From the IMG/VR virus record IMGVR_UViG_3300031718_000041, positions 1-24,978 of that record: DNA of 24,978 bases. One strand, given 5' to 3'. Source of the stretch: a virus. The position numbers were made by a program, and so were the translations under genes. Within the stretch, counting starts at the first letter, position 1. Each line of letters starts with the position of its first letter. The notes under the pieces were generated by a model, which did not search any database, had not been told where the DNA came from, and worked only from the letters and a program-made list of their open reading frames with translations. Positions 5,720 through 24,978 of this stretch are shown here, piece by piece.

Positions 5720-6349
5720 ATGGGAACATCAGTATCAAGTAATCCTATGAATATGGGATTGGGCCGTATTGGAGCAAGCGATATTATTTTCAAGCGTAAG
5801 TTTCGTTGGCTTTTCGAAGTTCAGATTCCATGCCACAGTGGTAACGACAACGGTTTGATTCCAGGTTCTTTCGTTAAAGTATCATCAAGACCAAATATCG
5901 ATTTCGAAGAAACCCAAATTGACTTCTTGAACGGTCGTACATGGATACCAGGTAAAGCTACGTGGCAAACCATTACTGTTACTTATATTGACGTGGCAAC
6001 TGCGGATATATTGCCGCTCTATAACTGGCTTGCTTCTGTATATAATTTTACAGCACAAGCAGCAGGGTCGGATATCACTCTAAGTAATACAACGAGCGCT
6101 AATTTGACGATGGGTAATCGACAGGACTGGGCGGGAATCGCTACTCTGACATTATTCGATGGTTGCGGAAGTTGGCTCGAACAATGGGCATTGAATAACT
6201 GCTGGCCACAAGCTATTAACTGGGGTGATTTAGATATGGAATCATCAGACATGGTAACAATCGAACTAACCTTGCGTTACGACAGTGTTGGTTATGTAAA
6301 TTACTGCCCAGGATTCAGCGTCACTCCTTGCTGCACTCCTTGTGCTTAG
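5720..6349 (+). CDS. Tail tube protein, T4 gp19-like (first copy)
   Basis: A 209-residue tail tube subunit forming hexameric rings inside the sheath. Family features seen are the N-terminal RKFRWLFEVQIP strand (about 26-37), KVSSRPNIDFEETQIDFLNG (about 53-72), WIPGKATWQTITVTYID (about 76-92) and the C-terminal ATLTLFDGCGSWLEQWAL followed by WPQAINWGDLDMESSDMVTI. The last ends in LTLRYDSV, typical of gp19-like proteins. It sits directly downstream of the sheath gene with a GGAG ribosome site (AAAGGAGAAAATT). The C-terminus carries an unusual cysteine-rich tail (CCTPCA). A second, diverged copy lies at 6608 after a 258-base non-coding stretch. This copy is probably the main tube protein because it is paired with the sheath gene. 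Confidence 0.92.
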   Translation: MGTSVSSNPMNMGLGRIGASDIIFKRKFRWLFEVQIPCHSGNDNGLIPGSFVKVSSRPNIDFEETQIDFLNGRTWIPGKATWQTITVTYIDVATADILPLYNWLASVYNFTAQAAGSDITLSNTTSANLTMGNRQDWAGIATLTLFDGCGSWLEQWALNNCWPQAINWGDLDMESSDMVTIELTLRYDSVGYVNYCPGFSVTPCCTPCA

Positions 6350-6607: not shown

Positions 6608-7210
6608 ATGGTTGACATGGGATTAGGAATATTAGGCAGTCCTTCAACGTGCTTTCGCCAGAAGAATCGCTGGATGTTCTCTATTCCTAATCTCATTGGT
6701 GTATCGGGGCCAAGCTCCTCTATTCCGATGCTTCCCCCATCAAAAGCGGCAAGACCCAATATTGAATTGAAAGAAGTGGAAGTTAGGCATATTAATGAAA
6801 CAGTTTATTATCCAATGAAGCCAGATTGGAAGCCACTTCAAGTCACTTTATATCACATAGGAGCATTTAATAATAATCCAATTTATAATTGGCTACTTGC
6901 TGCCTATAACCCTACTGCCTCTCTTACGGGTACTTGGTCTCCTTCTGTTAATAGTGGGAATGCAGTTGCCGCAGCAAGCGGAAATCCGGTATCTAGTTTA
7001 ATACAACCATATGCCTCGCTGGATATGTATGATGGATGCGGTGGATTCCTTGAAAATTGGACATATGAAGTAGTATGGCCTCAAACCATAGATTGGGACA
7101 CCCTGGACATGGAAACTGGGGAACTAGTTTATATCAATTTAACACTACGTTATGCCAGGGCATATTTCGGAACTTCACTTGGTCTTGCTTTGCCGCCTTT
7201 GCCGGGTTAA
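6608..7210 (+). CDS. Tail tube paralogue, T4 gp19-like (second copy)
   Basis: A 200-residue paralogue of the tube protein at 5720. Aligned by eye, both share MGLG-I-G near the start, RW-F-strand, SRPNI/ARPNIE, PxWxxxxVT, IYNWL/LYNWLASVY, DGCG-L-W and WPQ-I-W--LDME followed by LTLRY. The sequence between about residues 95 and 135 differs, being rich in Ser, Ala and Asn. It lacks the cysteine-rich tail of the first copy. A GGAG site (GCCGGAGTTAATTT) precedes the ATG. The distance and structured spacer suggest separate expression, perhaps for a minor tube, tube-tip or baseplate-proximal ring. Its stop overlaps the convergent gene at 7207 by four bases. Confidence 0.88.
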   Translation: MVDMGLGILGSPSTCFRQKNRWMFSIPNLIGVSGPSSSIPMLPPSKAARPNIELKEVEVRHINETVYYPMKPDWKPLQVTLYHIGAFNNNPIYNWLLAAYNPTASLTGTWSPSVNSGNAVAAASGNPVSSLIQPYASLDMYDGCGGFLENWTYEVVWPQTIDWDTLDMETGELVYINLTLRYARAYFGTSLGLALPPLPG

Positions 7211-7490: not shown

Positions 7491-8024
7491 TCAATCCTTT
7501 TCATTATTCTTTCTATCTTTTGGACTTATCTTGGATTGTTTATATCCTTTGGTAGATTGTAAGAAATCACCATACTTCTTCTTCAATTCATTATAGTTCC
7601 TAGCTGATCGCCACAATTGCCTAAAATGATTTAGAACACAAGTCGTCATATAGTTAAAAGCTTTGCCTTTAGATGGATTAAATCTTCCAATCTTCTCAAA
7701 ACAGATAAATACACCTTCTTGTATCGCGTCATCTGGGTCAACATTATAGAACTTAAAACATTGTACAATATTTCTGGATAACTTATAAAAATTGGCTGCC
7801 AATTGGTCTTGCGACATCTCAAAATTGGCTTTCATTTCATCGTATCTTTTTTTATGTTCATCCAACGCCGCAACATCATATTGCCTATTTCTTTTAATTT
7901 TCCTATTTATTGTTTCTTCATAATCTCTAATAATTAGCTCATATCGAGATTTGTACTTCTTAAAAGTTAGGAAGTTATCTATAGTACTCTCAAAACTTTT
8001 ATTATTTAGATATTCATTTGTCAT
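7491..8024 (-). CDS. Late-transcription sigma factor, T4 gp55-like
   Basis: A 177-residue protein whose residues of about 75-150 form a minimal sigma-70 region 2: AANFYKLSRNIVQCFKFY, DPDDAIQEGVFICFEKIGRF, and FNYMTTCVLNHFRQLWRS leading into NELKKKYGDF. The last part parallels T4 gp55 ([20 protein letters not shown] then VAKKYSYF). No region 4 is present, as in gp55 (185 aa). The lysine-rich first 70 residues form a charged, probably helical extension and the C-terminus is a short basic tail. By family knowledge such proteins replace the host sigma on core RNA polymerase and direct it to AT-rich late promoters of TATAAATA type. The gene is divergent from 8069, with 44 bases between starts. A TTGTCA box over its own start codon could serve the divergent gene. 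Confidence 0.85.
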   Translation of the reverse strand: MTNEYLNNKSFESTIDNFLTFKKYKSRYELIIRDYEETINRKIKRNRQYDVAALDEHKKRYDEMKANFEMSQDQLAANFYKLSRNIVQCFKFYNVDPDDAIQEGVFICFEKIGRFNPSKGKAFNYMTTCVLNHFRQLWRSARNYNELKKKYGDFLQSTKGYKQSKISPKDRKNNEKD

Positions 8025-11307: not shown

Positions 11308-12429
11308 ATGACAGAATATAAACCCAGAAAAATTGATTTAAACGCGGAAAGTCCAATGAATATATTGGAGAAGAATGCTCAAATTAGGGCTGCCGCCCAA
11401 GGTAGTCGCGAAGAAGTAGAGGCAAGAGGCGAGGGATTAGCAGCAGTGCCCCAAGTGCCAGCACAAGGGGGGTTAGATATTAATGGCCCAATGGACCCGG
11501 TTTTTGCTGAAATATTACAACAACAACAAAGAATACAAGGCAAACCTTCGCAGATGCAACAGCCGCAACGCAGAGCAACAGAAAGAAGCTCTGATCCGAT
11601 GAGAATGGCTCGCGACCAAGGTATGCTAAAAACTAGTGATGATTTGAGGAATATACTCGCTAAAATTAAACAAATTACGTTTAATTACGACGAACTAATG
11701 TTGCCTTCTCGGGGGCTTTTTTACGATGATACTAATGGCCCAAGTAGCGGAATAGTACACTTGCGACCTATGACCGGAGCAGAAGAAGAAATTCTTGCCA
11801 CACCGCGATGGGCAAAAGGCGGCAAAGCGGTCGATATGATTCTTAAAAAGTGTATCGAAGAACCAATAGATCCCGCCAAATTACTTACAGTAGATAGAAA
11901 CTTCCTGTTGATTTTCCTACGGGGTTCTTCATATGGAACAGATTATGAAGTTGAAATTAAATGCCCAAACTGCGACACAAGATATGCAACTGTTATTAAC
12001 TTAAACTTGGAAGTTCAACTTTGTCCTGAAACTCTCACCGAAGATAGTTTGGAAGGCGATCTCCCAAGTACCGGTTTGCACTTCACATATAAATTATCAA
12101 CTGGTTTGGACGACGAAGCTATCAACAAATATCGCGACCAAAAAATCAAGTTCTTTGGTGAAGCGAATGACGATTCAATTCACGAAAGATTAGCCCAGTT
12201 ATTAAAATCAGTAGATAATATTACAGAGCACAGAGAAATTAAGACATTACTTAAACAATTACCGTCGTTAGACCTAAATCACCTAAGAAATACTATAATT
12301 GATCCGCCGTTCGGTGTAAATACAAAAGTACCATGTATATGTCCGTCGTGCTTGGAAGAATACGAACAAGAATTGCCACTAGAAAGCAATTTTTTCTTCC
12401 CACGCCGCCAAAAGGAGAGAACAGAGTAG
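11308..12429 (+). CDS. Baseplate hub / tail-assembly protein, T4 gp26-like, zero-frame product
   Basis: A 373-residue protein. Residues 1-115 are polar and low-complexity (QQQQR, Gln/Pro/Arg-rich). Residues 120-225 match what I know of the T4 baseplate family (gp26-like): LMLPSRGLFYDD, HLRPMTGAEEEILATPRWAK, a helix KAVDMILKKCIEEP, LLTVDRNFLLIFLRGSSYG and DYEVEIKCPNC. C219, C222, C345 and C348 (KCPNC and CICPSC) form a split zinc ribbon. T4 gp26 is about 208 aa and acts in hub assembly, so this homologue carries N- and C-terminal additions. Ten codons before its TAG lies a TTTTTTC slippery site in the correct frame, followed by a stem. This implies a second, longer product of about 447 residues. 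That layout recalls lambda gpG/gpGT-type tail-assembly chaperones. Confidence 0.82.
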   Translation: MTEYKPRKIDLNAESPMNILEKNAQIRAAAQGSREEVEARGEGLAAVPQVPAQGGLDINGPMDPVFAEILQQQQRIQGKPSQMQQPQRRATERSSDPMRMARDQGMLKTSDDLRNILAKIKQITFNYDELMLPSRGLFYDDTNGPSSGIVHLRPMTGAEEEILATPRWAKGGKAVDMILKKCIEEPIDPAKLLTVDRNFLLIFLRGSSYGTDYEVEIKCPNCDTRYATVINLNLEVQLCPETLTEDSLEGDLPSTGLHFTYKLSTGLDDEAINKYRDQKIKFFGEANDDSIHERLAQLLKSVDNITEHREIKTLLKQLPSLDLNHLRNTIIDPPFGVNTKVPCICPSCLEEYEQELPLESNFFFPRRQKERTE

Positions 12430-12487
12430 ATGAATTAGGAAATGAAATGGACCCTATTGACTGGGCCTGTACGCAATTATGGCGGCG
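12390..12487 (+). promoter_or_regulatory. Programmed -1 ribosomal frameshift signal
   Basis: T-TTT-TTC (12390-12396) is a canonical X-XXY-YYZ heptamer placed exactly in the zero frame (codons for F362 and F363 of the gp26-like protein). After a 6-base spacer (12397-12402), CGCCGCCA (12403-12410) is perfectly complementary to TGGCGGCG (12480-12487). This gives an 8-bp, GC-rich stem closing a 69-base loop in otherwise AT-rich DNA. Spacing and stem strength fit known stimulatory elements. A -1 slip bypasses the TAG at 12427 and reads on to 12650, adding 84 residues. The pairing was read by eye; a pseudoknot was not tested. Confidence 0.7.
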
Positions 12488-12650
12488 ATTGTCCGAAGAA
12501 AAATTCTTTTTCTTCTATCATTTCCACGGAATGAACTTAGCTGACTTTTGGCTACAAACTCCAATTGAGCGAAGTTGGATGATCGATAGACTTATTTCGC
12601 AAAGGAAAAAAGAAAACGAGGAAATAGAAAAGAGATCAAAAGCAAAATAG
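12396..12650 (+). CDS. Frameshift extension of the gp26-like protein, or separate 67-aa protein from 12447
   Basis: In the -1 frame of the gp26-like gene an open stretch runs to 12650. If reached by the slip at 12390-12396 it adds 84 residues starting LPTPPKGENRVDELGNE. If initiated independently, the first good start is ATG 12447 with AGGAAATGAA upstream, giving 67 residues (MDPIDWACTQLWRRLSEEKF, then HFHGMNLADFWLQTPIERSW and a charged C-terminal helix ending EEIEKRSKAK). The aromatic core followed by a Lys/Glu helix is like small tail-assembly proteins, and T4 has gp51 next to gp26. Both modes may operate. The coding potential of codons 12396-12446, which contain no start, would distinguish them. 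Confidence 0.7.
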   Translation, partial: LPTPPKGENRVDELGNEMDPIDWACTQLWRRLSEEKFFFFYHFHGMNLADFWLQTPIERSWMIDRLISQRKKENEEIEKRSKAK

Positions 12651-17418: not shown

Positions 17419-18783
17419 TTAAGAGTTTCCCTCAAGTAATACTCTGGCAGTTCTAGCCTCAGATTCGACGGTTTCAAGAGCCGTTACAAGGTCGGACAAA
17501 TCGTCATCCGAAGTTTGATTAGTTTCATATTGGTTTTTAGAACTTACATCAATTGCCTTTATATGTTCTTTTATAGTTTCACAAAGCGTGTGGATCTTTT
17601 TCAAGAGTTCACTCCCCCCTAACGTAGGTTTTGTTGACTTTTTCCTATTCTTAATCGAATCATTATATTGGGCTGCTGCCGGCCCATATCCTTCCCCCCA
17701 CTTACCACTTCGATGTGGATCATTATGATGTCCCGTCTCAGGAAATCCACCTGACGATAACGACGAAGTGGAAGAATTTACAATAATATTACCTTTCTTG
17801 ATAGTTTCTTTAGGCTCCTCATTTTTATCCAACCCACATATTAAGTTGACTGGAATTTTCTTATCTTCAACGATAGTACCGGTCTCTATATCTTTTTCCT
17901 CGCGAGTATGAGTTACGTCGCAGTCTATATTAAAAAGGCCATATTGTTTTTTATTTGTATTAACACTCGGATTCTCCTCGTCAATCGCTAGGAAGAATAT
18001 CTTTTCCGTATGAACCTCAATAAGTTTTTGCTTAGAAGTTAAAACCTCCTGGGCTTCTTTACAATCTCTTAAGGCATCCCACCATATAATGGGATCGGAA
18101 AAGAAAAAGATTTGTCCTAAAGTGTCTCGCATATCAGCTAGCCATAAGGGACGATATTCGTTCCTCCATAACCAAAGATGTCTTGTACCGTCTTCGAATG
18201 TTTCACCTAAAGCAACCGCCATATGAGCCGTACCAGCTAAACTCCAAACCTTACTGATACCACCAATACGAATCTTTTGATGTTCGGTAAGGTTAGTATC
18301 AAACTTATCACTGATACGACTAAAGGGCTCGCCTTCAGCTTGAATTATACGAAGCATGATCTCTGAATCACATTGAGAGATCATAGTATACTTCTTTTTA
18401 AGATAACTGTGTTCTGGCACTTTCCCATTATGGACTAGACTTAAAGTTTTGTTGCCATTAACAAAAGGATGATTATTCTTATTTATACTTGGTTGACCAC
18501 TGCCAGGGGTAGCAGAACGCGCGTGCATAAGAAGTAGATTAGGATTGAATTTCCTAACCTTTTTCCACATATTATCGTACTTTACGAAATCACTAGATCT
18601 AATTGGGGCCTTATGATAGATGATAGCAGCTTGTCCGCTTGGTGGCAGTTTTCCAGCCTGGGTGCCCCAAATACCAGTGGCATCAGAGCCCCTAATCTCT
18701 AACCTAGAGAGAATCTGCGATATTAACCGATAACTAATCGTAGGATTAAGAGATTCGCCTATCAGTCCAGCGATTCCACACAC
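17419..18783 (-). CDS. Free-standing class II glutamine amidotransferase (Ntn-type)
   Basis: A 454-residue protein. Residues 1-275 form a GlmS/PurF-type glutaminase domain: nucleophile C2 (MCGIAGLIG), RGSDATG (31-37), HARSATPGSG (R89), HNGKV (118-122, oxyanion residues) and QCDSE (D139), then the typical later strands (AHMAVALGE; HLWLWRNEYRPLWLAD; FFFSDPIIWWDAL). The start is GTG 18783, fixed because cysteine must be residue 2; GAGAGGAAA lies before it. Residues 276-454 have no synthetase, sugar-isomerase or PRT domain. They are polar, Ser/Gly-rich in the middle and end in helices. The enzyme should release ammonia from glutamine, with its acceptor supplied by another protein. Phage DNA or nucleotide modification and envelope-sugar amidation are possible. 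A good sigma-70-like promoter precedes it (18848-18876). Confidence 0.88.
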   Translation of the reverse strand: MCGIAGLIGESLNPTISYRLISQILSRLEIRGSDATGIWGTQAGKLPPSGQAAIIYHKAPIRSSDFVKYDNMWKKVRKFNPNLLLMHARSATPGSGQPSINKNNHPFVNGNKTLSLVHNGKVPEHSYLKKKYTMISQCDSEIMLRIIQAEGEPFSRISDKFDTNLTEHQKIRIGGISKVWSLAGTAHMAVALGETFEDGTRHLWLWRNEYRPLWLADMRDTLGQIFFFSDPIIWWDALRDCKEAQEVLTSKQKLIEVHTEKIFFLAIDEENPSVNTNKKQYGLFNIDCDVTHTREEKDIETGTIVEDKKIPVNLICGLDKNEEPKETIKKGNIIVNSSTSSLSSGGFPETGHHNDPHRSGKWGEGYGPAAAQYNDSIKNRKKSTKPTLGGSELLKKIHTLCETIKEHIKAIDVSSKNQYETNQTSDDDLSDLVTALETVESEARTARVLLEGNS

Positions 18784-19613: not shown

Positions 19614-20180
19614 ATGATAGTAGCCCAAATATTAAAGTATCTTATAAATCATTGGGTCGGTTATTTGAGCGGAACGATAGTAATCATTTTCACCGTGATA
19701 ATCGGGATGTACATCTCTAAGATTTTAGATGCTCTACTCCCGCAAATGAACAAAATCAGATTTATTTTAGACGGCAGCCTTAAAACTGCAATATGGACCG
19801 TAGGATTCCTAATTGCTCTTACCTTATTTGGATTAAATGTATCTGCGATTATTACGAGCCTTGGTTTATTGGGATTTGGTTTAGGTTTAGCATTAAAAGA
19901 CATAGTATCCAATTTTGTATCTGGTATAATGATTCTTATATATCAACCATTTGATATAGGAGATACTCTTACGGTAGGGGATTATCAAGGTAAAGTCCAA
20001 AGGGTAGATTTAAGATATACATGTCTTATCCAAGTAAAGGACGTATCTGGCGGGACGGGGAAAAAGTTTGCAGCAACAGACCAGATTCTTATACCTAATT
20101 CAACTATGTTTTCTGATATAATTATAGTTCACGAGATACATAAAGTTCATAACGATAAGAAGAAGGTGGTAAAGAAATAG
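19614..20180 (+). CDS. Small MscS-family mechanosensitive channel
   Basis: A 188-residue inner-membrane channel. Membrane helices lie at about 17-36 (YLSGTIVIIFTVIIGMYISK), 57-82 and 83-112. The last is the pore-lining MscS helix with GLLGFGLGLALKDIVSNFVS followed by GIMILIYQPFDIGDTL, the family hallmark. Residues 117-170 form the beta domain (VGDYQGKVQRVDLRYTCL; DQILIPNSTMFSDIII). The C-terminal alpha/beta cage of E. coli MscS (286 aa) is missing and a basic tail (HNDKKKVVKK) ends the protein. Its stop directly abuts the convergent pyrG stop with no spacer. Channels of this family open when membrane tension rises. In a phage it could protect the swelling cell, alter lysis timing or counter host defence; all of these are inference. 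Confidence 0.9.
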   Translation: MIVAQILKYLINHWVGYLSGTIVIIFTVIIGMYISKILDALLPQMNKIRFILDGSLKTAIWTVGFLIALTLFGLNVSAIITSLGLLGFGLGLALKDIVSNFVSGIMILIYQPFDIGDTLTVGDYQGKVQRVDLRYTCLIQVKDVSGGTGKKFAATDQILIPNSTMFSDIIIVHEIHKVHNDKKKVVKK

Positions 20181-21800
20181 TTATGTCTGGTTGTTTATTT
20201 GAGACATTTCTTTATTGTTCATAGCAGCATCTACAAGACCAACAAACAAAGGACTCGGAGATAATAAGTTCGAAGTAAACTCCGGGTGAAATTGCGTGCC
20301 GATAAAGAACGGATGTAATTCTTTATCTAGTTCCATAACTTCCACGAGGTTTGATTGTGGGTTACGCCCAGAAACTCTGAATCCTTTTTCGTTCATTTTT
20401 TCAATATATTCACTTGAAACTTCGTATCTATGCCTATGCCGTTCGCTAATATTACGTTTACCATATAACTCATTAGCTAAGCTCCCTTTAGTTAGCTCGC
20501 AATCATACGCACCCAATCTCATGTTTGCCGATTTGGTAGTTAATTTTTCTTGCCCCTCTACAAAGGACACTACTGGGTATGGAGTTTTCTTATCAAACTC
20601 TACACTGTTGGCGTTTTCTAGCTTACATATGTTTCTAGCAACTTCTATTACCATCGACTGGAGACCCAAACATATACCTAAAAGAGGAATCTTTTTTTCT
20701 CTGGCATAACGAATCGCTTTGACTTTACCCGAAACGGCTCTTTCGCCGAATCCTCCCGGAATTATAACTCCATGTATAGAATCAGGCATTGGATTACCCT
20801 TTTCTAAATCTTCGGCACTAATCCAACAAATTTCTATTTTTACATCATTCGCTATACCGGCATGCACCAGAGCTTCTTTTATTGAAGAATAAGCGTCAGC
20901 AGCGTCATACTTATGAACAATACCAATTTTAATAACTGCGTTGATACTATCAATTTTTTCTACGATGGCCCTATAATTATGAATCCTACATGATTTACGA
21001 CCCATATTCAATTTATCAGCCAACAAATCATCTAGATTAGATTTGTAAAAATTAATTGGAATCTTGTAAATCGAGTCAACGTCGGGAGCCAAAACAATAT
21101 CTTCTTCTGGAATAAAGTTTAACTGAGACACTTTTTGAAAGATATAGTTCGGAATTTGTCTATCTGACCTGCAAACTAATATATCTGGGTTGAGTCCATA
21201 TGACCTCAAATCAGCAATACTTCTTTGTAAAGGTTTGGTTTTGAACTCCTTGATATTCTCAAAATACAATATAGGACTTACAAAAATGATTAGACAATCA
21301 TGTTTGTACTTCTGTTTTAACTGACGGGCTGCTATATAGAAAGAACTAGATTCGTCGTCGGCACAAGTGCCTCCTATCTCGCAAAATACAATTTCATTGT
21401 CTTTGCCTAATTCCTCAATTCTATCTCTAATTTTTTGCGTTACATGTTGGACAACGGTAATCGTTTCTCCAAGGTATTTGCCGGCTTCTTGCTCTTCAAT
21501 TAGTTCTTTATATAAAGTTCCACTAGTATAGATGTTTTTCTTGCACATTTCAATACCAGTAATTCTTTCGTAGGTACCGAGGTCTGTATCGCACTCAATA
21601 GGTTCAGAGCCGCCTAAAACAAATGCCTCGCCATGAGCGTTTGGCCCAATGGTACCACAATCCACGTTATAGTAGGGATCTAACTTCATTATCTGGACTT
21701 TATGTCCACGTAATTTCATCAGCAACGCTAAACTCGACGCAACAAGCCCCTTACCAACCGAAGATATGCATCCTCCACAAACAATCACATATTTACACAT
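20181..21800 (-). CDS. pyrG: CTP synthase (glutamine-hydrolysing)
   Basis: A 539-residue full-length CTP synthase converting UTP, ATP and glutamine to CTP. The synthetase domain (1-265) has GGCISSVGKG (9-18, ATP loop), MKLDPYYNVDCGT (38-50), HGEAFV, DTDLGTYER and CEIGGT (E141). The class I glutaminase domain (about 290-530) has PGGFGERAV, GICLG with nucleophile C377, RHRHRYEV and HPEF (H505, E507). Two oddities stand out. The loop between HGE and LGTYER is two residues longer than in E. coli (GGSEPIEC in place of DDGAET), and the conserved GHYER histidine is threonine. SSVGKG and DCGTIG are also slightly off consensus. It overlaps the upstream endonuclease gene by eight bases and lies two genes after the ribonucleotide reductase. 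CTP made here can feed that enzyme directly. Confidence 0.96.
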   Translation of the reverse strand: MCKYVIVCGGCISSVGKGLVASSLALLMKLRGHKVQIMKLDPYYNVDCGTIGPNAHGEAFVLGGSEPIECDTDLGTYERITGIEMCKKNIYTSGTLYKELIEEQEAGKYLGETITVVQHVTQKIRDRIEELGKDNEIVFCEIGGTCADDESSSFYIAARQLKQKYKHDCLIIFVSPILYFENIKEFKTKPLQRSIADLRSYGLNPDILVCRSDRQIPNYIFQKVSQLNFIPEEDIVLAPDVDSIYKIPINFYKSNLDDLLADKLNMGRKSCRIHNYRAIVEKIDSINAVIKIGIVHKYDAADAYSSIKEALVHAGIANDVKIEICWISAEDLEKGNPMPDSIHGVIIPGGFGERAVSGKVKAIRYAREKKIPLLGICLGLQSMVIEVARNICKLENANSVEFDKKTPYPVVSFVEGQEKLTTKSANMRLGAYDCELTKGSLANELYGKRNISERHRHRYEVSSEYIEKMNEKGFRVSGRNPQSNLVEVMELDKELHPFFIGTQFHPEFTSNLLSPSPLFVGLVDAAMNNKEMSQINNQT

Positions 21801-23097: not shown

Positions 23098-24978
23098 CTA
23101 CGCATAGCTCAATGAACAAACCCCGCCGCTACACGCTGATTCAGTCACAAAATTAGTTACATCCGATTCTTCGACCATCAAAGAATAATCAACCTCCTTA
23201 TATTCTCTGTTAAGATCACACCATAATTTCCAGTTATTGACATCCTTCAATAAGTAAGTAGTTTGTTCCAAATCCCCGTTGATATACCGGTTGGCAAATT
23301 GTTTCACTCTTCTGATCCAATCCAACTTAATCTCAAAGCGTTCGTCCTTCTCAGATTCCTTTAATGGGATGATACCGAGAGTAATATCGCAGGCTTCCCA
23401 TAGATTATTGTTGAAAGCATATAAACCATCTACTATCAGTCCAGAAGCCATCAATGCTCCAACGCCATATTTTTCTACAATTTCTTTAGGTGTATGAATA
23501 GCTGTGAAGGGTGCCTGAGCATAAACTTTGTCTCCACTTTCGGGGAGCAAACTAATCCCTGCAAAATATTCTTTGTTATCAAATATATAATCAGCAACAT
23601 CCTCCCATTCTGCTGGTCTAACCAAGCATGTATTACTTACATTATGTCTTAACCAGGGCTGCACACAATAGTCTGCCCTAGTACCAAATTCAATCCAGTT
23701 CTGGCGAGTCAATTTCACTTGTTTAAGTAGTTCAATAGCGCTTAAATCATTTTTAACTCGTCCACTTTCAGGAACTTCAATACAAAAAGAAACAACTTCA
23801 TCAGTTCCGTTAGCAGACCAGACACTTTTTTCAACAGCAATAGAATTAATTTTCTTGAAATATTGTAATGGAGCTTCCATCCAATTACCCTGAGCGCGGC
23901 GGATATATCTCCTGGCATGATGAGGATGAATACCACTTGCTGTTCCCAAGATACAACTCGTAGTTCCAGCGGGTTTAATTGTAGTAGCCCTGGAACATAA
24001 GTTAATACCGATTTTATCAGCGATTATTTTATTGACATCCAAAACTAATGTAGCCATTTTGCGTTGTAGTTCTGGGTCAAATAAAATCTTCGGAGAATCC
24101 ATCATACCAGTAATTGATACACCTAGTAAAGCTTCTCTTTTGACGATGCGTTCGGTTACTTCCCCTAGATAATCAAATTCGTCGTAGCCAGCTTGACATG
24201 TACCAATAATAGCGGCGGCTCGTGCGGCTGTCTCAAAATCATTTTCATTTTTAATTTTCTTGCCATTAATCTCCGTAAGATTACACATTTGCCATCCGGA
24301 ATTACCGTCGTCATCGTAGGCATAGAGCGATATTTCGGCACAGGGGTTGAAAAGGCATTCGGTATTATCAGAGAAAATAAAACCAGGCTCACCAAATTGT
24401 TTTACACATTCCATCAATTCAGAAAATTGTTCCCAACTTGTTTGATGTCGAACTAGTAAGGCAGAATTATTCGATCTAGATCGTTGGGGATTCTCTACAA
24501 ACCAATCGCCTGTTTTTGCTTTTGCCATCTCCGTATCATCAGGAGAAAATAAACAAATGGTAGCAGAACGTCTAACGCCGCCACTCAAAACAGCATCCGA
24601 TGCGTGCATAATAACATCATACGCATCAATAGGTCGTAACTTATTTCGATTTTCTTGTAAGCATCTGTCTAATACTATTCTTATTTTTTCGAGACCATTT
24701 TTAAGTGGCTTAGGACCAGGGGCTTTCCCAGAGGACGAGCGTAATGGAGAGCCCTCTGGACGAATTAGAGAATAATCAAATATTACATCGCAGCCACTGT
24801 ACTGAGGGAAATCTCCACCACCAAGATAGCTACTAATTAAAACACCAAGAGCGTCTGCCCACCCTTCGATACTATCTTCTATTGTATAAACTTTTTTAAC
24901 ATCCTTGCGTGAGGTAAAATAATGAAGTTTCTCTATATGGTGTTTTTGTACTGAGAATCCGGTGCCGCAACCACATAA
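23098..24978 (-). CDS. Adenosylcobalamin-dependent (class II) ribonucleoside-triphosphate reductase, C-terminal 626 aa
   Basis: The gene runs off the right edge; 626 residues are visible and perhaps 100-130 N-terminal ones are missing. From the edge inward: LCGCGTGFSVQKHHIEKL, SSYLGGGDFPQYSGCDVI, IRPEGSPLRSSSGKAPGP, HASDAVLSGGVRRSATICLF, the active-site FNPCAEISLY (thiyl cysteine and glutamate), WQMCNLTEIN (partner cysteine), TIKPAGTTSCILGTASGIHP and HARRYIRRAQ. The protein ends ACSGGVCSLSYA, a C-x4-C pair like the swinging thiols of Lactobacillus-type RTPR. The family reduces NTPs to dNTPs using coenzyme B12 and needs no oxygen. The frame continues past an internal ATG at 24609 with conserved residues, so that ATG is not the start. 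It is the first gene here of an operon with the endonuclease and pyrG. Confidence 0.93.
   Translation of the reverse strand, partial: LCGCGTGFSVQKHHIEKLHYFTSRKDVKKVYTIEDSIEGWADALGVLISSYLGGGDFPQYSGCDVIFDYSLIRPEGSPLRSSSGKAPGPKPLKNGLEKIRIVLDRCLQENRNKLRPIDAYDVIMHASDAVLSGGVRRSATICLFSPDDTEMAKAKTGDWFVENPQRSRSNNSALLVRHQTSWEQFSELMECVKQFGEPGFIFSDNTECLFNPCAEISLYAYDDDGNSGWQMCNLTEINGKKIKNENDFETAARAAAIIGTCQAGYDEFDYLGEVTERIVKREALLGVSITGMMDSPKILFDPELQRKMATLVLDVNKIIADKIGINLCSRATTIKPAGTTSCILGTASGIHPHHARRYIRRAQGNWMEAPLQYFKKINSIAVEKSVWSANGTDEVVSFCIEVPESGRVKNDLSAIELLKQVKLTRQNWIEFGTRADYCVQPWLRHNVSNTCLVRPAEWEDVADYIFDNKEYFAGISLLPESGDKVYAQAPFTAIHTPKEIVEKYGVGALMASGLIVDGLYAFNNNLWEACDITLGIIPLKESEKDERFEIKLDWIRRVKQFANRYINGDLEQTTYLLKDVNNWKLWCDLNREYKEVDYSLMVEESDVTNFVTESACSGGVCSLSYA

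Follow-up and report, generated by a model that had tools for sequence, protein, structure and literature searches.

Does the gp26-like gene of this virus yield one protein or two? The window analysed here, a 24,978-base virus record, contains a T4-type tail module, in which profile searches identified sheath, tube, and sheath-stabiliser proteins. The zero-frame product of the gp26-like gene matches PF12322 (T4_baseplate) over residues 146 to 363 (E = 7.7e-18; 65.4 bits, curated cut-off 24.5) and phrog_150 (baseplate hub; E = 5.6e-21). A first-pass annotation had proposed a programmed -1 frameshift close to the 3′ end of this gene, and the coordinates underlying the proposal check out. Specifically, the heptamer TTTTTTC is in phase, with TTT (12391 to 12393) and TTC (12394 to 12396) as its zero-frame codons. 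It is followed by the proposed 6-nt spacer (12397 to 12402) and, in the zero frame, by ten sense codons (12397 to 12426) and the stop, and the -1 frame is open for 84 codons (12396 to 12647), up to a stop codon at 12648 to 12650. The predicted fusion protein comprises 447 residues, because 363 residues would be joined to 84. The features are compiled in Table 1.

Table 1. Features of the gp26-like locus in window coordinates
Feature	Position	Strand	Basis
gp26/gp51-family zero-frame ORF, 373 aa; putative short form TAC-N	11308..12429	+	PF12322, phrog_150, AlphaFold model
Candidate -1 slippery heptamer T_TTT_TTC	12390..12396	+	phase from sequence; conserved in relatives
-1-frame extension, 84 codons plus stop; putative C-terminal domain of TAC-NC, predicted helical	12396..12650	+	open frame, alignment, AlphaFold, selection in relatives
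5′ arm of proposed 8-bp stem, putative	12403..12410	+	pairs with 12480-12487
Zero-frame TAG stop	12427..12429	+	sequence
Possible internal ATG in -1 frame; alternative 67-aa product	12447..12449	+	sequence
3′ arm of proposed 8-bp stem, putative	12480..12487	+	pairs with 12403-12410

The window was scanned for in-phase X_XXY_YYZ sites near the ends of all ORFs of at least 100 codons. Of the seven such sites found, only the one at 12390 precedes a long open stretch, which reaches 72 codons beyond the stop, compared to 35 codons for the runner-up. The combination of heptamer and open -1 frame in the window is more than chance.

Homologues were collected by searching phage genomes at the protein level and by scanning IMG/VR five times. 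A gp26-like ORF was present in 290 sequences including the window, 286 of which contained its 3′ end; in all 286 complete loci a second ORF overlaps this end. Clustering at 90% identity reduced the complete loci to 203 representatives. The second ORF lies in the -1 frame in clades A3, which includes the window, and A4 (Atu_ph07, Phosso, PA5oct), and also in the jumbo phages 121Q and CBB, which were checked separately. It lies in the +1 frame in clades A5 (Bacillus SP-15, Listeria LIS04, Streptococcus GXN1) and A6 (Flavobacterium immuto, Microcystis Mel-JY01, and about 70 environmental representatives). Loci L185 and L186 scored as A3 but have +1-type sites, and both are counted here in the +1 group.

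The heptamer T_TTT_TT[C/T] is in phase in 49/49 representatives of A3, 51/52 of A4, and 5/5 of the unassigned -1 representatives. These 105 of 106 cases compare with about 37 expected from the codon choice of each gene given its amino acids (A3, 15; A4, 20; unassigned, 1). The first-pass annotation had proposed checking in aligned homologues whether the heptamer, its phase, and the bases of a downstream stem are kept; heptamer and phase are kept in the -1 clades, whereas the stem bases are not (see below). Homologues without the heptamer and stops between the two frames, both set in advance as contrary outcomes, were looked for and, apart from the single A4 exception, did not occur in the -1 clades. 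In the +1 clades, TTT-[T/C]TT-T is found in 71 of 72 representatives (48 expected), and TTT/TTC-TTT-C and similar sites in 17 of 19 (12 expected); the evidence for codon-level selection is weaker here than for the -1 heptamer. Located at the same Phe-Phe position, TTT-[T/C]TT-T or TTT-C resembles the CUU_U of RF2-type and Listeria PSA-type +1 sites, a likeness in sequence alone that belongs to the +1 relatives and not to the window. A near-invariant TTT-[T/C]TT-TGG-CCT-GAC closes the gp26-like ORF in A6 (L212-L291, L007, L011), with the next domain in +1; in the Flavobacterium- and Microcystis-phage relatives, this looks like an RF2-type +1 site. A clear slip site was not found in a few A5 members (L201, L205). 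Five A5 members (L196, L199, L201, L205, L206) carry TTA/CTA-TTT/TTC-AAT-CCC-AGT, in which the +1 site is perhaps CCC_A.

Within 45 codons after the slip site, the second frame contains a stop in 0/201 representatives; in the same test, stops occurred in 188/201 for the remaining frame and in 201/201 for the zero frame. Among the relatives, pN of the second domain ranges from 0.11 to 0.16 and pS from 0.52 to 0.80, indicating purifying selection. Profile comparisons of the second domains by hhalign gave 98% for A3-A5, 94% for A3-A6, 92.5% for A4-A6, 92.6% for A5-A6, and 90.5% for A4-A5; A3 and A4 compared directly gave only 16%, with reversed controls at or below 2%. By this measure the second domains of all four clades, -1 and +1 alike, are homologous. 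The C-terminal extension of T4 gp51 scored 94% against the A4 domain (E = 1e-7; reversed controls ≤2%) and only 0.5% in the direct profile comparison with the A3 domain of the window's clade. The profiles thus relate the window extension to the gp51 extension as homologues through A4, A5, and A6 as intermediates.

The second ORF could instead encode a separate 67-residue protein, started at the ATG at 12447 by reinitiation or coupling and requiring no frameshift. Independent initiation is possible in this phage, as AGGAA is located a few bases 5′ of that ATG; moreover, ATGA start/stop overlaps occur in two relatives, Atu_ph07 and Phosso, and annotators list the second ORF as a gene of its own. 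However, the first 25 second-frame codons contain no ATG, GTG, or TTG in 58/71 representatives of A6, 24/56 of A4, 17/49 of A3, and 10/25 of A5. Independent initiation cannot therefore be the general mechanism, and the in-phase heptamer is nearly invariant while start codons are so often absent. The slip site of the +1 clade A6 is followed at once by the conserved domain, and in T4 gp51 the domain is present as an in-frame fusion. We regard a separately initiated protein as very improbable.

The stem of the first-pass annotation would pair CGCCGCCA (12403 to 12410) with TGGCGGCG (12480 to 12487). The two segments are perfectly complementary, so that the pairing holds as a sequence match, but it fails as a conserved or better-than-chance element. 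Its folding z-score is -1.17, with 24 of 200 shuffles folding equally well, and stems of at least 8 bp arise at that position in 16% of shuffles. Aligned relatives keep 28% of the window-stem pairs, compared to 16 to 51% for slid controls. Folding, shuffles, and relatives led us to reject the 8-bp stem as a required element. Within the window's clade, stems of at least 8 bp occur in 71% versus 13% after shuffling, an excess that is not decisive, since polypurine tracts encoding Lys/Arg and polypyrimidine tracts encoding Phe can form such pairs through composition.

Another stem, different from that of the window, is found in 22 A4 representatives (including L102, L106, L107, L111, L120, L129, L130, L135, L147, L153, and L173). 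It starts 3 nt after the heptamer and consists of 10 bp enclosing a 16-nt loop, its 5′ arm reaching into the zero-frame stop. In these 22 representatives, 87% of the cells are paired versus 33 to 53% for slid versions, a percentage favoured by selection because the rows were picked, after the stem had been seen, from 32 representatives with the stop at +15. The covariation score is 0.286 compared to 0.135 for shuffled alignments, and 0/500 shuffles reach it. Good evidence nevertheless comes from changes affecting both partners of a pair (A-U to G-C at columns 14/43 and U-A to C-G at columns 12/45), and the covarying A4 stem is likely a frameshift stimulator. In an A4 subgroup with the stop at +6 (L014, L098, L101, L124, L125, L138), candidate long-range arms change together between loci, for example GGCTCTTGC (+7) and GCAAGAGCC (+66) after the heptamer.

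The covarying RNA stem in one -1 clade also argues against slippage of RNA polymerase on the T run, which would supply a shifted mRNA in place of ribosomal slippage. The run comprises six Ts at the window site and seven in many +1-clade members, but six is below the length usually required for polymerase slippage. Moreover, the phase is conserved, and several +1-clade sites are interrupted by C (TTTCTTT; TTCTTTC), making polymerase slippage hardly credible. That an indel of sequencing or assembly split one continuous gene, as might be suspected where the break lies at a homopolymer in a lone environmental contig, is practically refuted by the recurrence of the break at the same protein position in 286/286 complete loci, isolate genomes included, and by a shift direction that differs between clades.

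AlphaFold was used to predict the structures of the 373-residue short form and of the -1 extension, which was aligned with 41 relatives (alignment A8); the input alignment consisted of the window and viral_contigs rows only. The short-form model reached a mean pLDDT of 91.6, and the slip codon falls right after its last folded element. In BFVD, this model matches a baseplate hub subunit of SP-15 (E = 1.1e-18) and also T4-like hub proteins. The model of the extension (mean pLDDT 83.7) features helices at residues 20 to 43, 48 to 54, and 56 to 83. A fold search of the PDB with both domains gave no match at E < 0.001, in a library for which the presence of a gpG structure was not confirmed; the gene is consequently classed as working like G/GT and not as a gpG homologue.

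Ribosomal -1 frameshifting in the gp26-like gene, with products of about 373 and 447 residues as first proposed, has strong comparative support, and the gene very probably encodes a tail-assembly chaperone pair composed of a short TAC-N and a -1-frameshifted TAC-NC. Most ribosomes would stay in the zero frame and produce the 373-residue gp26-like TAC-N. A smaller share, holding Phe-tRNAs on TTT and TTC, would slip back by one base at T_TTT_TTC and translate a further 84 codons, which yields the 447-residue TAC-NC with its helical addition. If the pair behaves like lambda gpG/gpGT, the tape-measure protein would be covered by many copies of TAC-N and few of TAC-NC; these chaperones would bring in tail-tube subunits and depart before completion of the tail. 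The comparison establishes a conserved site and phase, an open frame, selection, homology of the second domain, and kinship with T4 gp26/gp51, and from these we infer slippage, its rate, and the chaperone role of the two products.

Of the traits of the lambda G/GT type, the window gene possesses an overlapping open second ORF and a conserved in-phase slippery site; the lambda site, GGGAAAG, is unlike T_TTT_TTC, and Zn-ribbon-type cysteines set the gp26 family apart from gpG/gpGT. In lambda, many short and few long copies are present on the tape measure, and the extra domain recruits the tube protein (PMC5009743). T4 has been described as the exception to the conserved G-T frameshifting of long-tailed phages (PMC5009743). 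Its gp26 and gp51 are listed as hub assembly chaperones, with gp51 being required and absent from the finished particle (PMC3004832). Both T4 proteins belong to PF12322 and align lengthwise, with an extra tail on gp51; T4 therefore encodes the short and the long form as two genes. These are separate, divergently oriented, and free of frameshifting, whereas the window contains one gene and would reach by frameshift the extra C-terminal domain that gp51 carries.

A T-rich -1 site also ends the TAC-N gene of Vandenendeviridae and Andersonviridae (polyT, GTTTTT), phage families other than that of the window, and there the downstream ORF is likewise misannotated as a separate gene (PMC12846349). 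As described in papers citing Vladimirov, Gautam and Davidson (2022, Virology 566:9-15), some T4-like phages encode the short form and a long fusion in separate genes (PMC10885494), and polyT -1 sites occur in T4-like TAC-N genes (PMC12846349). In view of this prior work, as represented in the citing papers, novelty of T4 gp26/gp51 as a short/long chaperone pair was dropped. The first-pass statement that the architecture was unfamiliar for gp26-like proteins is, going by the same citing passages, only partly right, as T4-like chaperones and polyT sites had been reported (PMC10885494, PMC12846349).

What may be new is the use of two shift directions within one homologous gene family, together with the covarying stem. 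Judging from the loci compared, predicted frameshifting in the gene family of T4 gp26/gp51 is nearly universal once the T4-type relatives examined are set aside, and its use, in two directions, is far wider than database annotation shows. In the records examined, the extension is annotated as a separate gene or left uncalled and the long form is missing, an annotation that is corrected here. One protein position with -1 shifts in some clades and +1 shifts in others offers a natural experiment on the evolution of shift direction and stimulators. A scenario that could go either way is that frameshifting at a fixed Phe-Phe site is ancestral to PF12322, that -1 and +1 were switched with the domain unchanged, that stems were gained or rebuilt per clade, and that T4 gp26/gp51 represent a derived duplication that took the place of frameshifting.

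In the SP-15, LIS04, and immuto relatives, the gene order is tube, gp26-like gene, small ORF, and tape measure, with the sheath preceding the tube, an arrangement in keeping with the proposed chaperone role. In the window, where no tape-measure gene was identified, sheath and tube are located upstream of the gp26-like gene with other genes in between. The tail-tube protein (PF06841) is encoded at 5720-6349 (+); the product of 6608-7210 (+), which has no Pfam match, resembles it by eye, so that a tube duplication is possible. Other genes of the window encode a 4Fe-4S ferredoxin-like protein (587-943, +), a Sigma-70 region 2 protein (7491-8024, -), a GATase_6 glutamine amidotransferase (17419-18783, -), an MscS-like channel (19614-20180, +), a phage-encoded CTP synthase (20181-21800, -), and a fragment of the ribonucleotide reductase large subunit (23098-24978, -).
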